Origin: Anaerolineales bacterium
GTDB lineage: Bacteria > Chloroflexota > Anaerolineae > Aggregatilineales > UBA2796
DNA length: 64,000 bases
Assembly: GCA_015075625.1 (NCBI GenBank)
Contig: JABTTZ010000002.1
Span: 310,001-374,000, forward strand
Direction of reading: 5' to 3'
A program made the position numbers and the translations under genes. The notes under the pieces were generated by a model, which saw nothing but the letters and a program-made list of their open reading frames with translations, ran no database searches and was not told the origin of the DNA. This document shows positions 23,820 through 33,983 of the stretch, in pieces. Positions within the stretch are counted from its first letter, which is position 1, and each line of letters starts with the position of its first letter.

Positions 23820-26800
23820 CTATTTCCCCAAGTCCTTCCGAATGGTGCGCAGATCGTCCGACCGTTCGCGGATGCCCGCCGTCGCCTCCGGGGGATGTTG
23901 GGTGATGAGCGAGTCCACAATCTGTTCCAGCACATCGAGCAGTTCAATTGGCAGTTGAACCACCAATTGGCGCATCTGGTCGCTGGACTGCACGGTTTGG
24001 AAGGCGTTAAAAAGCTGCTGGAGCAGGGTGTTGGGGTCATCCCCCCCCATCAGTGTTTGGTATTCGCTTCGCCATCCATTTACAACTGAATGGTTGGCAA
24101 AAGCGGGGATCGATTCAGCGAGTTTAATGACTTCCTCGTAATAACGAGCGGCGGCATCTCGATTCCCTTGTGCTTTTTCCAACCGCGCTAGACCGATCAG
24201 CGTGTTCATGATCCCCACTGAATCGGGAATTACCCGAAAGAGCGCCATCGCTTCGGTATACCGCGCCCGCGCCTCGCCGTAGTGATCCTCCATCCGTTCC
24301 AGATCGCCCAACGCCTTCAGGGTGTTCGCCTGACCGAGCCGAGCCGGGATCGCTTCAAAGAGCCGCAGCGCCGCCTCGTACCGCGCCCGCGCCTCGCCGT
24401 AGTGAGCCTCCCGAACTTCCAGATCGCCCAACGCCTGAAGGGTGTTCGCCTGACCGAGCCGAGCCGGGATCGCTTCAAAGAGCCGCAGCGCCGCCTCGTA
24501 CCGCGCCCGCGCCTCGCCGTAGTGAGCCTCCCGAACTTCCAGATCGCCCAACGCCTTCAGGGTGTTCGCCTGACCGAGCCGATCCGGGATCGCTTCAAAG
24601 AGCCGCAGCGCCGCCTCGTACCGCGCCCGCGCCTCGCCGTAGTGATCCTCCCGAACTTCCAGATCGCCCAACGCCTTCAGGGTGTTCGCCTGACCGAGCC
24701 GATCCGGGATCGCTTCAAAGAGCCGCAGCGCCGCCTCGTACCGCGCCCGCGCCTCGCCGTAGTGATCCTCCCTCCGTTCCAGATCGCCCAACGCCTGAAG
24801 GGTGTTCGCCTGACCGAGCCGATCCGGGATCGCTTCAAAGAGCCGCAGCGCCGCCTCGTACCGCGCCCGCGCCTCGCCGTAGTGATCCTCCCTCCGTTCC
24901 AGATCGCCCAACGCCTGAAGGGTGTTCGCCTGACCGAGCCGATCCGGGATCGCTTCAAAGAGCCGCAGCGCCGCCTCGTACCGCGCCCGCGCCTCGCCGT
25001 GATCCTCCCTCCGTTCCAGATCGCCCAACGCCTGAAGGGTGTTCGCCTGACCGAGCCGATCCGGGATCGCTTCAAAGAGCCGCAGCGCCGCCTCGTACCG
25101 CGCCCGCGCCTCGCCGTAGTGATCCTCCCTGAACTTCCAGATCGCCCAACGCCTTAAGGGTGTTCGCCTGACCGAGCCGATCCGGGATCGCTTCAAAGAG
25201 CCGCAGCGCCGCCTCGTACCGCGCCCGCGCCTCGCCGTAGTGATCCTCCCTCCGTTCCAGATCGCCCAACGCCTGAAGGGTGTTCGCCTGACCGAGAGCG
25301 TACCCGCCCTTTTCCGCCCCCTCATAGCCAGCCGTCAACAACCCGCGCCGCACAACAGCCAACTGCCGAAACTGCATATAGCCATTGTCTAATGCCGTCA
25401 GGAGATCAACGGCAGGGACGGGAATGGTCTGGAAACCCCAGAGCAGCGCCGCCTGAAGATCGGGAAAATCACGATCTAGCGTGCCCAGTTGGGCGGTGAG
25501 TGCCATTGCCTCTTTCCCGCCATAAAGCGCGGCATAATGGGCAAAATGTCCCCCTTGCAGCGCCGCCCATTCGCCCTCTTTTTGCGCCAGCGCTTGCGCA
25601 TAGGCACGCAGCAGGGGATGGAGGCTGTAGCGCCCCTCTCCGGCGTCCGCCAACAGCCCCGCCCGCCGCAGGGCATCAATGCCATCATCGGCATCCGCTG
25701 CGTCACCATCTCCCCACACCGCGCCCAACGCGCCCGCACTGAACGTCCCCTCCGCGGCAAAGACGCTCACTGCCCGAAAGCGTCGTCTGGCGTCCGCCTT
25801 CATCTCGTCGTAACTTTCGAAAAGGGACATTTCCACATTCAGGTTCTTGTCCGTCTCGTCTATCGCCAAATCCTTGAACAGGCGGGGACTTTTCAGCCGC
25901 TCCAACAGGGTAGGGGCGAAGTCCGCGCCGCGTTCCTTCAGGCGCAGCGCGGCGATCTGCACGGCGAGCGTGTGGTAGTCAAGTGTCTGGAGGATCGCCC
26001 GTTCCGCTTCGGTATAGGGGCGGGTGTCATCTGGGGAGCGGTTTAGGTGAGCATCGATCAGGGCGAGTCCCTCCGCCTCGCTCAGCTTGTCCAGGGCGTG
26101 GACGCCCGCCCCGATCTTCGTCGTGATTCCGGGTTGGCGCGTCGTCAGCAAGACGCGGTTGGCGGCACCCAAAATAGCGAAGGGCGTCACCATCGTGTGA
26201 TCCCAGACATCATCAAGGACGACGAGCGCCCGCTTCCCGCTGCTAATCGCCTGCAAACGCTCTTGAGCAGTACTCTCGGTGTACTGCGTCGGATCGTCGC
26301 CCAAGCCCCTGCCCACCGCCGCCATGATTGTCGTTGGCTGCGCTGTTCGCCCCACCTCTACCCAGATGATCCCATCGGGAAAGCGGCGGCGGATACTGCA
26401 ATCGTGGCAGACGGCGTGGGCGAGCGTCGTTTTGCCAATGCCGCCCAACCCCGTCACCCCGACGATCTGTTTCGAGGTGATCGCCGTCATCTGCCTCCCG
26501 CCGTTCGTCCCGCAGACATCGGCAATGAGGGGGGTGAGGTACATCGAACGTTCGATGTAGGTACTCGGCAGGTGGGGAGGGATCGTCCCCTTCAACGCCC
26601 CTAAGGGGAGGGGGTGATCCCCCAGAAGGCGCAGCAGTTCTGCCAGCGTGTCCTCATAGGGGCGCTGTGTCCCGCCTTCGGGGGCGTGCAGCCCGCGCAG
26701 CGGTTCGGGCAGCCGTTCGGGGGTGATTCCCCGCAGAAGGGGGATGACCGCTTTGCAGTGGCTGAGGGCGTACTTCCACTCCATCCACACGTAGTCGGAA

Positions 26801-27264
26801 GTGAGGGCGTGTTCGCCAGCGACGAGGATCACCCGATCAACCCCCTCAATCGCCCGCTGAATCTCGTGATCGAAGGTTTCCCCCCGCGAGGGCATGGAGA
26901 GGCGATCATACCAGATAGAAATACCCCGTTTTGTCAGGTCGTCGTAGAGCTTTTGGACAAACGCCTCGTCGTCCTTGCGGGCGTAGCTGAGGAACACACG
27001 GGCGATAGGATCAACGGGCTTCAGGTGCTGCTTGGCATAGGCGATCACCTTCTCGTACTGCTCTGGAAAGCGGGCGTAGAGCGCAGCGAGGAAGTTTGTG
27101 GCGCACACCTGAGCATCCCCGCTGTAATCCGTCCCCAAGAGGAGGGCGTGATCATAGCCAAGCGCGGCGCGGATGAACGCCGGGCGGTCTACGGGCAGGA
27201 TAAAAAAAGGAGCGATCAGCGCTGTGTGGGCGCGGCTTTCCTCCGAGGTGTAGGTGGCGGTCAT
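23820..27264 (-). pseudogene. TIR-NB-ARC-TPR STAND protein, frameshifted in its TPR array
   Basis: The N-terminal 730-residue frame (27264-25072) has an uncharacterised region (1-85), a TIR domain (about 88-180, ARVFLSYARKDDE to WMEWKYALSH), an NB-ARC ATPase (Walker A GLGGIGKTT 272-280, Walker B ALVVLDDVW 346-354, LLTTRQ sensor) and a winged helix. TPRs begin near residue 670. A second frame (to 23820) carries the rest of the TPRs and a C-terminal helical tail. One extra T near 25130 separates them; removing it gives about 1147 residues. GGAGAGTG precedes the ATG. Such STAND proteins detect invaders and trigger TIR-mediated NAD depletion; this role is inferred. It may be a decayed gene, a phase-variable gene or an assembly error. 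Confidence 0.85.
24280..25319 (-). repeat. nine near-identical 120-bp tandem repeats encoding 40-residue TPR units
   Basis: The plus-strand marker AGATCGCCCAACGCC recurs at 24301, 24421, 24541, 24661, 24781, 24901, 25018, 25139 and 25259. The spacing is 120 bp except 117 (loss of AGT, in frame) and 121 (one extra T, frameshift). Two alternating subtypes differ at CTCCGTTCC versus CGAACTTCC. Each codes YGEARARYEAALRLFEAI plus a linker. The near-identity implies recent amplification or gene conversion. Confidence 0.95.
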
Positions 27265-30221: not shown

Positions 30222-30422
30222 AAAAGGCTATCCTTAAAGTGCTTTTTTATTCCGGTCTATCTTCCATTTTATAAGAAGTTTCTCTATTAAGGGTGGGGGA
30301 AGCACGAGGAATTTTATAGATAGACACTTCCAGAATCTTATACAATGGAGGGAACAAAGGTATGTTGCTCGCGGGGAACGCCCCCTTTTTCACGCCTCAG
30401 CAAAAAATATACTAGGGAAAGA

Positions 30423-31238
30423 ATGGGGTTAGGGATGTGGAGCATGCGCCGTATTCGCCGTACCGTAATGGCAGTGTTGTTGGTTATCAGCGCTGTGTGT
30501 GTTGTGTTTCTGCTGAACGTTACCGCGCCGAACCCCACCGGACGGCGCTATTCGAGCCTTGTCATGGGCTTGCCAGATGATCTGCGTCAAAAAGGGCAAG
30601 AGGGTGAGGATGCGCTCAGCACCGATCTTCGTTTGCTTACAAACAACCGCCCCCCAATACAGTGTATTTGTGGGGCAAACACAGCCCCAACCAGACAGCA
30701 GTGTACGGTGTGTTTCGCTCAGATTCCCTTGAGCGGTTCAGCCGCCTATCGCCGTCCCGATTTCGTCACCGAGCGCTATATCCTTGAGGTGAAGAACACC
30801 ATTAGGCTTGCCCCCAACACCCGCGACCATGAGGAACTTACCGATTACGCGGAAGCGGCACGCGCCAGTGGGCGGCAATTATGGATTTTCACCCGCGTAA
30901 ACACAGCCGTCCACCCCATTTTTGTTGATCTGGCACGTTCCACCGGTGGGGATGTCATTTACTATCTGGCGATTGCCGGATGGCACGATGTGACTGATGG
31001 GCGGGCGCGTCAAGGGCTGCTGCTTTCGGGGGTTGGTGTCTGCCTTTTGGCAATGGGCGAGCGCCGCGTGCGAGGGGCGATCTTCACCCGACATACACCA
31101 CGTCCGCCGCGCCGCACCGCACCAGAAACCGCCGCCGATTCCATAGATCGCGCCGAACAGCAGATCAAAACGATGCGGGATAAACTCAACGCCAAACTGG
31201 ATCGGATGGATGAATTGGATCAGACCGAGCAACTATGA
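30423..31238 (+). CDS. membrane protein with Cys4 cluster and PD-(D/E)xK-like nuclease core
   Basis: 271 residues from the ATG at 30423 (AGGGA upstream). An earlier ATG at 30345 lies on a -10-like TATACA. Order: basic N-terminus, helix 15-33 (VMAVLLVISAVCVVFLLNV), a CIC...CTVC four-Cys motif (81-97), then RRPDFVTERYILEVKN with Asp113, Glu122 and Lys124 spaced as in PD-(D/E)xK nucleases. LTDYAEAARASGRQLWIFTR follows, resembling restriction-fold toxin domains (Tox-REase). A second hydrophobic helix is at about 197-212, then a charged coiled-coil tail. The nuclease assignment is motif-based. It is coupled by ATGA overlap to the CPBP-like gene. Confidence 0.7.
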   Translation: MGLGMWSMRRIRRTVMAVLLVISAVCVVFLLNVTAPNPTGRRYSSLVMGLPDDLRQKGQEGEDALSTDLRLLTNNRPPIQCICGANTAPTRQQCTVCFAQIPLSGSAAYRRPDFVTERYILEVKNTIRLAPNTRDHEELTDYAEAARASGRQLWIFTRVNTAVHPIFVDLARSTGGDVIYYLAIAGWHDVTDGRARQGLLLSGVGVCLLAMGERRVRGAIFTRHTPRPPRRTAPETAADSIDRAEQQIKTMRDKLNAKLDRMDELDQTEQL

Positions 31239-32372: not shown

Positions 32373-33983
32373 CTAGGTATCCTCTCGGCTTAAGACATAA
32401 CGTCGCGTGAGGGTGGAAATCCAATAGGTTGCGGAGAGGTTCTCTGTCACATGGACAAGACAAGCGCTTGCCAATTCCAAAAGCGCAGCATTGAGCGCCT
32501 TGGGGGAAATAGGGTTGCGAGAACGCAGCCGCTCCCATGTAATGACCTCTGTGCCGGGTTTGGCAGGGAATGCGGCTAGTGATCGTAAGACTCCTTGTGC
32601 TGCCTCAGAGAGTGCCTCCCACGCTGGATCATAGACATGCTCGTAGAGTGGGCGGCTTAAATCGCCCGTCTCGCAGAAATCCTCATAGACTTGGGAGAGA
32701 GGAAGGGCGCTGAGGCGGTCTATGAGCAGCCGTATGGCGAGAGGATTTGCTCCCGCCGCCTCAATAATCTTAAGCAGTTCCTCTTGGCTTGCTTTTGCCA
32801 CACTTCCCACCCCACGCTCAGCAGCGTAATGTTTTGCCAAGAGAAGGGCATTGGCGCTGTCTAGCTCATTCAAATGGAGGGCGTAAGCATTTTGGTATTC
32901 ACTAAGGCGACGCCGGCTGGTGATGACGACCTTAGAACGCGAACTAGAAACCGCCTCGTGAAGGGCAGTCAATACAGCAGGAATATCGCGCACTGCCTCT
33001 AAGCCATCGAGGACAATCAACGTCCTTGCCGCCCATAAGCGCTCTAAGACAAGCTGAAATTTCGCTCGGAGTGATTCCTCTGGCGGATCATTGCGCGTCT
33101 GATGTTCATCAACAACGGTGAGAAATGCCTCGAACGTGGGAGTTTCATCCCCCTCAAGGCGCTCGACAAGCTCGCCAAAAGCATCGTCTGGTGTCCGCAG
33201 CGATTGATTCAATTGGGGGAGGAGTTGATCATAAACATCACCCAAACCGAGGGGGTGTTTGCGTGTTGGCTGGGGGCGACTCCATACCCATTGGGAAGTT
33301 TGGGCGCTGATCCACGCCAACGCCTCGAACGCGCCACTGCGCCACACATGGGCAACCGCTTCGCGGGCAACGGCAGTTTTTCCTAACCCACCTAAGCCAT
33401 CCAAGACAACGAGGGCGGGGGCATCAGCAGAGAGCAGCACATCCGCCAAGCGGTGCAGCGCCCAATCCACCCCAAAAAGACGGGCAGTTGTCGCCGGAGG
33501 GAGCATTGCCAAACGGCGGACAGAGGTCGTCCGCTGCTCATCACGGGCGCGGTGTTCCGCTTGAATCAGCCGTTCGGCAAGGGCATCCAGCGTATCGCCC
33601 CGCTCGCGGTAAAACTGTGCTTTGCTAATCAGAAGGGTGTTTGTATAGATTTCGCCGGGTTTTTCCCCTTGACGGTAAAGCCTATCGGCGATCACATAGC
33701 GACGTTGAGCGGGCGAGTCAGCGTTACCCGTGACCTGACGCAGGGAATCGATGATTTCATCCAAAACCGTCCGCACCGCTTGCCCAATTTTCGCCGTCGT
33801 TGGCGGGGGGAAAAGAGGAACATTCCCACGTACCACCTGCCACGAGACAAACAAAGACGTGGAGAGGGTGAGATCGTCGGCGTAGTGGGCAAGGCAGTGT
33901 TCTAGCAAGCGAATGATACCCTCCCGATCTTGGGTGGGGTCGCTAGGGGTAGCATCTGCCGCTGGATTACGGGAAGGAAACAT
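32373..33983 (-). CDS. NB-ARC (STAND) ATPase without sensor repeats
   Basis: 536 residues. The N-terminal region (about 15-150) is mostly helical and unassigned. NB-ARC follows: Walker A GLGGLGKT (196-203), Walker B TLIVLDGLEAV, sensor VVITSRRRL, then helical and winged-helix domains (NPLAIRLLIDRLSALP, AQGVLRSLAAFP). It ends without TPR, WD40 or LRR repeats, so any sensing must use the N-terminus or a partner. It starts only 7 bp after the rodA stop on the same strand, suggesting co-transcription with a cell-wall gene. It might be a regulator or a defence protein. Confidence 0.85.
   Translation of the reverse strand: MFPSRNPAADATPSDPTQDREGIIRLLEHCLAHYADDLTLSTSLFVSWQVVRGNVPLFPPPTTAKIGQAVRTVLDEIIDSLRQVTGNADSPAQRRYVIADRLYRQGEKPGEIYTNTLLISKAQFYRERGDTLDALAERLIQAEHRARDEQRTTSVRRLAMLPPATTARLFGVDWALHRLADVLLSADAPALVVLDGLGGLGKTAVAREAVAHVWRSGAFEALAWISAQTSQWVWSRPQPTRKHPLGLGDVYDQLLPQLNQSLRTPDDAFGELVERLEGDETPTFEAFLTVVDEHQTRNDPPEESLRAKFQLVLERLWAARTLIVLDGLEAVRDIPAVLTALHEAVSSSRSKVVITSRRRLSEYQNAYALHLNELDSANALLLAKHYAAERGVGSVAKASQEELLKIIEAAGANPLAIRLLIDRLSALPLSQVYEDFCETGDLSRPLYEHVYDPAWEALSEAAQGVLRSLAAFPAKPGTEVITWERLRSRNPISPKALNAALLELASACLVHVTENLSATYWISTLTRRYVLSREDT

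Follow-up and report, generated by a model that had tools for sequence, protein, structure and literature searches.

A probable EAD8-TIR-NB-ARC-TPR receptor gene, frame-broken in its repeat array, in a genome of the Anaerolineales

An Anaerolineales genome (G000; 4.68 Mb in five contigs) contains a gene that probably encodes an intracellular receptor of the STAND/NLR type, in which an EAD8 adaptor is followed by a TIR effector, an NB-ARC switch, and a TPR sensor. In the assembly, the reading frame of this gene is broken within the sensor array. The gene was analyzed in a stretch of 64,000 nucleotides (G000:C2:310001-374000), hereafter the window. The features of the gene are listed in Table 1, together with three other proteins of the same genome having an EAD8 domain above the Pfam cut-off.

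Table 1. Features of the receptor gene (window positions) and other EAD8 proteins of the source genome (contig:position)
Feature	Location	Strand	Description
ORF A	25072-27264	-	730 aa; EAD8-like domain, TIR, NB-ARC, winged-helix/helical region, TPR 1 and part of TPR 2, then about 20 out-of-frame residues
EAD8-like effector-associated domain	27070-27228	-	residues 13-65; C-terminal third of EAD8 short or missing
TIR domain	26641-26997	-	residues 90-208; Pfam TIR_2, E 6e-20
E162 codon	26779-26781	-	aligned with SARM1 glutamate E642
NB-ARC NTPase	26014-26475	-	residues 264-417; PF00931, E 4e-25; Walker A and B
ORF B	23820-25325	-	501 aa; remaining TPRs and C-terminal cap in the other frame; first ~65 residues are an out-of-frame reading of units 1-2
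Tandem array	24219-25296	-	nine 40-aa TPR units; 120-bp period, DNA 96% identical
Unit 2	25056-25176	-	121 bp; +1 frame break parting ORF A from ORF B
Unit 3	24939-25055	-	117 bp; one codon lost in frame
C-terminal cap	23820-24218	-	unique, 133 codons; first part homologous to the array end of intact single-ORF homologues
EAD8-TIR-NB-ARC-WD40	C5:80665		1324 aa
EAD8-CHAT	C5:84758		directly downstream of the C5:80665 gene
EAD8-TIR-STAND	C1:1023987		1690 aa

Gene structure, conserved domains, and neighborhood

In the preliminary description, a single gene was placed at 23820-27264 and its product was read as an intact TIR domain, a complete NB-ARC with Walker A and B motifs, and a TPR sensor, an architecture likened to that of bacterial NLR-like immune proteins. 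The coordinates proved correct, but the gene lies on the minus strand and is divided between two ORFs. As for the sensor, nine TPR units are encoded, but the frame breaks in the second of them; homologues including L054 and L111 have an unbroken frame. The TIR, the NB-ARC, and the NLR-like architecture were all supported, the last of these by Pfam domains, an AF2 model, and fold matches.

The frame of ORF B is open across the remaining array units and the C-terminal cap, the two other frames of the cap carry stops, and the codon-position GC of ORF B is coding-like. The start of the cap matches the continuation of the array in L111 (i-E 1e-14) and L054 (i-E 3e-12). Because the cap thus continues the array of intact single-ORF homologues, ORFs A and B are parts of one gene. 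The extreme C-terminal tail of ORF B gave no significant match to that of L054 (i-E 1.4). A plus-strand ORF over the array (24282-25157, 291 aa) was discarded as a gene, being a by-product of a repeat poor in stops.

For ORF A, structure prediction with AF2 yielded a model with mean pLDDT 82 and pTM 0.72. Residues 89-216 of this model match the TIR domains of SARM1 (Z 17.7, rmsd 1.8 Å over 122 residues), AbTir (Z 16.0), and SPARTA (Z about 18). In a profile alignment, E162 aligns with the glutamate of the SARM1 DWVHKE motif, E642 by numbering and the catalytic glutamate of SARM1; E162 is invariant in 16 homologues. A P-loop NTPase and a winged-helix region are present, as in STAND/NB-ARC receptors, and both nucleotide-binding motifs are kept in the 16 aligned homologues: G272, G275, G277, and K278 of Walker A (GLGGIGKTTL) and D351 of Walker B (LVVLDDVWD) are invariant. 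The best fold match for the NB-ARC part of the model was Apaf-1 (Z 29.7), and plant NLRs (NRC proteins) were matched too. Apaf-1 and plant NLRs were matched at the sequence level as well. In the profile search, the family was closest to Apaf-1 (E 1e-62), followed by AfsR.

The genes around the locus are ordinary, encoding an LPG_synthase_TM-family protein, PyrD, a PD40 protein, a GDSL lipase with SH3, and an amino-acid-kinase-family protein; a defence island was not found among the annotated neighbors. No relatives of the protein were found in the phage records searched, and comparison with the anti-phage systems of PADLOC-DB gave no full-length match, only partial TIR, NTPase, or TPR matches. 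In the only congeneric genome, the genes flanking the locus sit on different contigs, one of 3.5 kb.

This neighborhood and the AfsR match bear on the function of the protein, which might be a STAND regulator of metabolism or transcription, as AfsR is, and not part of immunity. Streptomyces AfsR can be aligned to the protein from the NB-ARC into the TPRs (E 1e-46), and no defence genes adjoin. However, where a regulator would have a DNA-binding domain as its output, this protein has a catalytic-looking TIR, and EAD8 is a domain of conflict systems (PMC7159879); a regulatory role of this kind is considered very improbable.

Two other ORFs of the window were recorded. A second NB-ARC protein (32373-33983, minus strand, 536 aa), having neither TIR nor EAD8, is encoded about 5 kb from the gene. 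The ORF at 30345-31238 (plus strand) has an N-terminal hydrophobic stretch and a weak, sub-cut-off match to the restriction-endonuclease-fold family PF15649 (E 6e-4).

The N-terminal domain and its relatives

EAD8 is a proposed homotypic adaptor. The first 85 residues of ORF A had been described as an unrecognized domain, possibly a separate adaptor that would give the protein a four-part layout. In a Pfam search these residues matched no family, and the EAD8 (PF19961) cut-off was not reached; the domain is therefore named here EAD8-like and not a member of Pfam EAD8. Nevertheless, an HMM built from six other EAD8 domains, with the domain of the window left out, scored 24.4 bits over residues 13-64 of this N-terminus, while none of 5000 shuffled sequences exceeded 11.3 bits. 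Among 154 genomes of the order, these residues matched one other protein in their own genome (on C5, E 6e-5) and one in G088, and their closest relative is the EAD8 of the TIR-NB-ARC-WD40 paralogue on C5. PF19961 itself matches the N-termini of the C5 and G088 proteins, of the C1 paralogue, and of two EAD8-TIR homologues, from G005 and G007 (E 4e-7 to 3e-18).

Pairwise comparison gave z-scores of 13.9 to the C5 EAD8 and 5.3 to the C1 EAD8, both from the same genome and both above the Pfam cut-off. Such comparisons showed no similarity to the CHAT-linked EAD8 (z 0.3), nor to the EAD8s of G005 and G007. The AF2 model of the domain is helical, at low confidence (pLDDT 35-70). EAD1 (PF19955), for which the genome search gave only sub-threshold matches, was dropped for EAD8. 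Judged by these comparisons, the N-terminus is a divergent, shortened EAD8 with its nearest kin in the same genome, in line with what Kaur et al. (2020, PMC7159879) describe for such adaptors. Thus, the domain set before the TIR does belong to a known kind of adaptor. The protein does have a four-part layout, but not a novel one, since EAD8-TIR-NB-ARC proteins are encoded by four further genomes of the family.

The closest homologues include those of these four genomes (G005, G007, G009, and G010), which have EAD8, and those of G027, G034, and L111, which lack it. The G005 homologue (L054) is a single ORF of 1306 aa that is intact through 11 TPRs. Phylogenetic analysis of the TIR-NB-ARC core placed the window protein in a 15-member clade of Chloroflexota-type sequences (100/100) with an unresolved base. 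The four EAD8-bearing homologues group together, and the other main clade contains the C5 paralogue. Given this distribution, either EAD8 came to stand before the TIR by gain or exchange on more than one occasion, or it was lost repeatedly. Between the window protein and the C5 protein, 17 of the 42 aligned N-terminal positions are identical, compared with 30% identity in the cores. Since the N-termini are at least as alike as the cores, exchange of EAD8 within the genome is the favored reading, although the comparison is suggestive only.

In total, ten TIR_2 matches and seven matches to CHAT, a caspase-like protease family, were found in the source genome. The adjacent EAD8-TIR-NB-ARC-WD40 and EAD8-CHAT genes (G000:C5:80665-85700; L048:6606-11700) form a ready-made EAD pair. 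The EAD8 seed profile also matches the N-terminus of a 790-aa protein (G000:C1:482900; L060; E 6e-8, local set), for which a hydrophobic stretch is predicted. In G016, of the same order, 22 EAD8 copies were found, far above its relatives.

The TPR array and its broken frame

Detection of the array with TRF gave 8.7 copies with 96% matches and a score of 1857, and the Pfam family TPR_12 was matched in both ORF A (E 5e-7) and ORF B (E 2e-61). In gene order, the units measure 120, 121, and 117 bp, followed by six of 120 bp. Units 1, 4, and 5 are identical at all 120 bases. With the degenerate last unit and the two units of aberrant length left aside, differences between units are confined to codons 7-8, 15-16, 18, and 39. 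At the protein level, positions 8, 15, 16, 18, and 39 vary, position 16 through the last unit only. Mean DNA identity among the full-length units of the window is 96%, versus 58-78% to homologous units elsewhere, and for this reason the array appears to have been recently homogenized or amplified.

The positions that vary among the window units are hypervariable in L111 as well, the nearest homologue to have a full array (mean entropy 2.14 versus 0.88 bits). The permutation p for L111 was 1e-4, which was the best result among four arrays taken one at a time; the same test over nine arrays together gave p 0.02. These positions were mapped by sequence only, and the array structure predicted from the single sequence had pLDDT 57. 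By the TPR consensus, array positions 8, 15, and 16 presumably correspond to the ligand-facing TPR positions 5, 12, and 13. The same repeat pattern has been described in fungal NLRs, where the variable TPR residues lie on the concave face (PMC4986451).

Beyond the break, ORF A continues for about 20 foreign residues to a stop. As assembled, the product is truncated and lacks most of the sensor, and a full receptor cannot be made in one frame. Three explanations of the break were considered. All concern the state of the gene, and each can be combined with its reading as a STAND receptor.

An error of assembly or polishing, given about an even chance here, would leave the natural gene intact, both length anomalies being consensus errors at a place where short reads cannot be positioned. 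The two anomalies are found in neighboring units, and the window has no other near-identical array. Such arrays are evidently hard to assemble, since similar ones in G007, G009, and G010 terminate contigs or contain Ns. On the other hand, the extra base lies outside any homopolymer.

Alternatively, the length change may be real, a product of unequal recombination between units, in which case the gene would be a pseudogene from which a truncated ORF A or nothing is made. The adjacency of two units of aberrant length fits this explanation too, and the junction in unit 2 reads like a hybrid between the two unit types that carries one extra base. Also, the ORFs of the window that were checked gave no sign of a further broken gene; a possible second frame break at 44.7 kb turned out to be two genes, one for ClpB and after it one for a methyltransferase, and not one split gene. 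However, the downstream units and the unique cap remain open in one frame with coding-like GC3, so any real break would be very recent. Inactivation is a possibility to be taken seriously, if a rather doubtful one.

A switchable gene is the third explanation, and a very unlikely one. Recombination or slippage in the array could toggle the sensor (phase variation), or programmed frameshifting could join the two ORFs. The identity of units 1, 4, and 5 would make unequal exchange easy, but a unit of 120 bp is divisible by three and gain or loss of whole units keeps the frame. Moreover, neither a slippery heptamer nor a homopolymer is found at the break, and no second allele was seen.

Proposed function and related systems

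For the STAND receptor, the following mode of action is proposed. The TPR superhelix would sense a ligand from an invader or from stress through its helix-A surface. The NB-ARC would then exchange ADP for ATP and oligomerize, and the clustered TIR domains would hydrolyze NAD+, so that the cell is arrested or killed. EAD8, through homotypic binding, would link this protein with further EAD8 proteins encoded in the genome; candidate partners are the TIR-NB-ARC-WD40 paralogue and possibly the adjoining caspase-like EAD8-CHAT protein. Judging from the family to which the protein belongs, a role in defence, or in cell suicide, is likely; we further infer an anti-phage function, with phage as the presumed trigger. 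A more elaborate arrangement is conceivable, though rather unlikely, and would amount to a dual-output inflammasome. In it, EAD8-tagged NLR-like sensors of the TPR and WD40 types, each with its own TIR NADase, would share one EAD8-CHAT protease in trans via EAD8-EAD8 contacts, and the TPR sensor would be renewed by unit-by-unit homogenization in which only the ligand-facing residues vary.

Proteins of this kind are already known as EAD-coupled conflict systems with TIR-STAND proteins. In these systems (Kaur et al., 2020, PMC7159879; Kaur et al., 2021, PMC8195603; PF19961), as in the window protein, a small helical adaptor is found at the N-terminus of effector or STAND proteins and several copies occur per genome; the source genome also has the EAD8-CHAT gene beside that for EAD8-TIR-NB-ARC-WD40. 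The EAD8 of the window differs in being short and under the Pfam threshold. Bacterial TIR-AP-ATPase (NB-ARC)-TPR conflict proteins (PMC7159879) have their three domains in the same order, to which the window protein adds EAD8 before the TIR; unlike in those systems, the annotated neighbors include no peptide-processing system.

Among more distant systems, the archaeal STAND protein PH0952 (PDB 6mfv; Z 21.5 over 403 residues) likewise carries a TPR sensor behind its STAND NTPase, but identity is 14% and the matched part includes no TIR or EAD. The NB-ARC/winged-helix fold is shared with Apaf-1 and with the plant TIR-NLRs RPP1 and Roq1, and the latter also carry the TIR before the NB-ARC. In contrast to these proteins, the sensor here is TPR and not WD40 or LRR, and EAD8 stands in place of CARD. 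Fungal NLRs whose internal repeats are highly conserved (Dyrka et al., 2014, PMC4986451) resemble the window protein in being NB-ARC/NACHT receptors whose TPR, ANK, or WD units are near-identical, with few variable residues; these lie on the binding face, as is presumed for the window protein. The window protein differs from them in being bacterial, with 40-aa units, a TIR effector, and a single known allele.

A repeat pattern of the fungal-NLR type, with near-identical units and few variable residues, is thus found in a bacterium. In addition, the previously unexplained N-terminus can now be read as an effector-associated, death-domain-like adaptor, which offers a testable wiring between this receptor and potential EAD8 partners of the same genome, one of them caspase-like.
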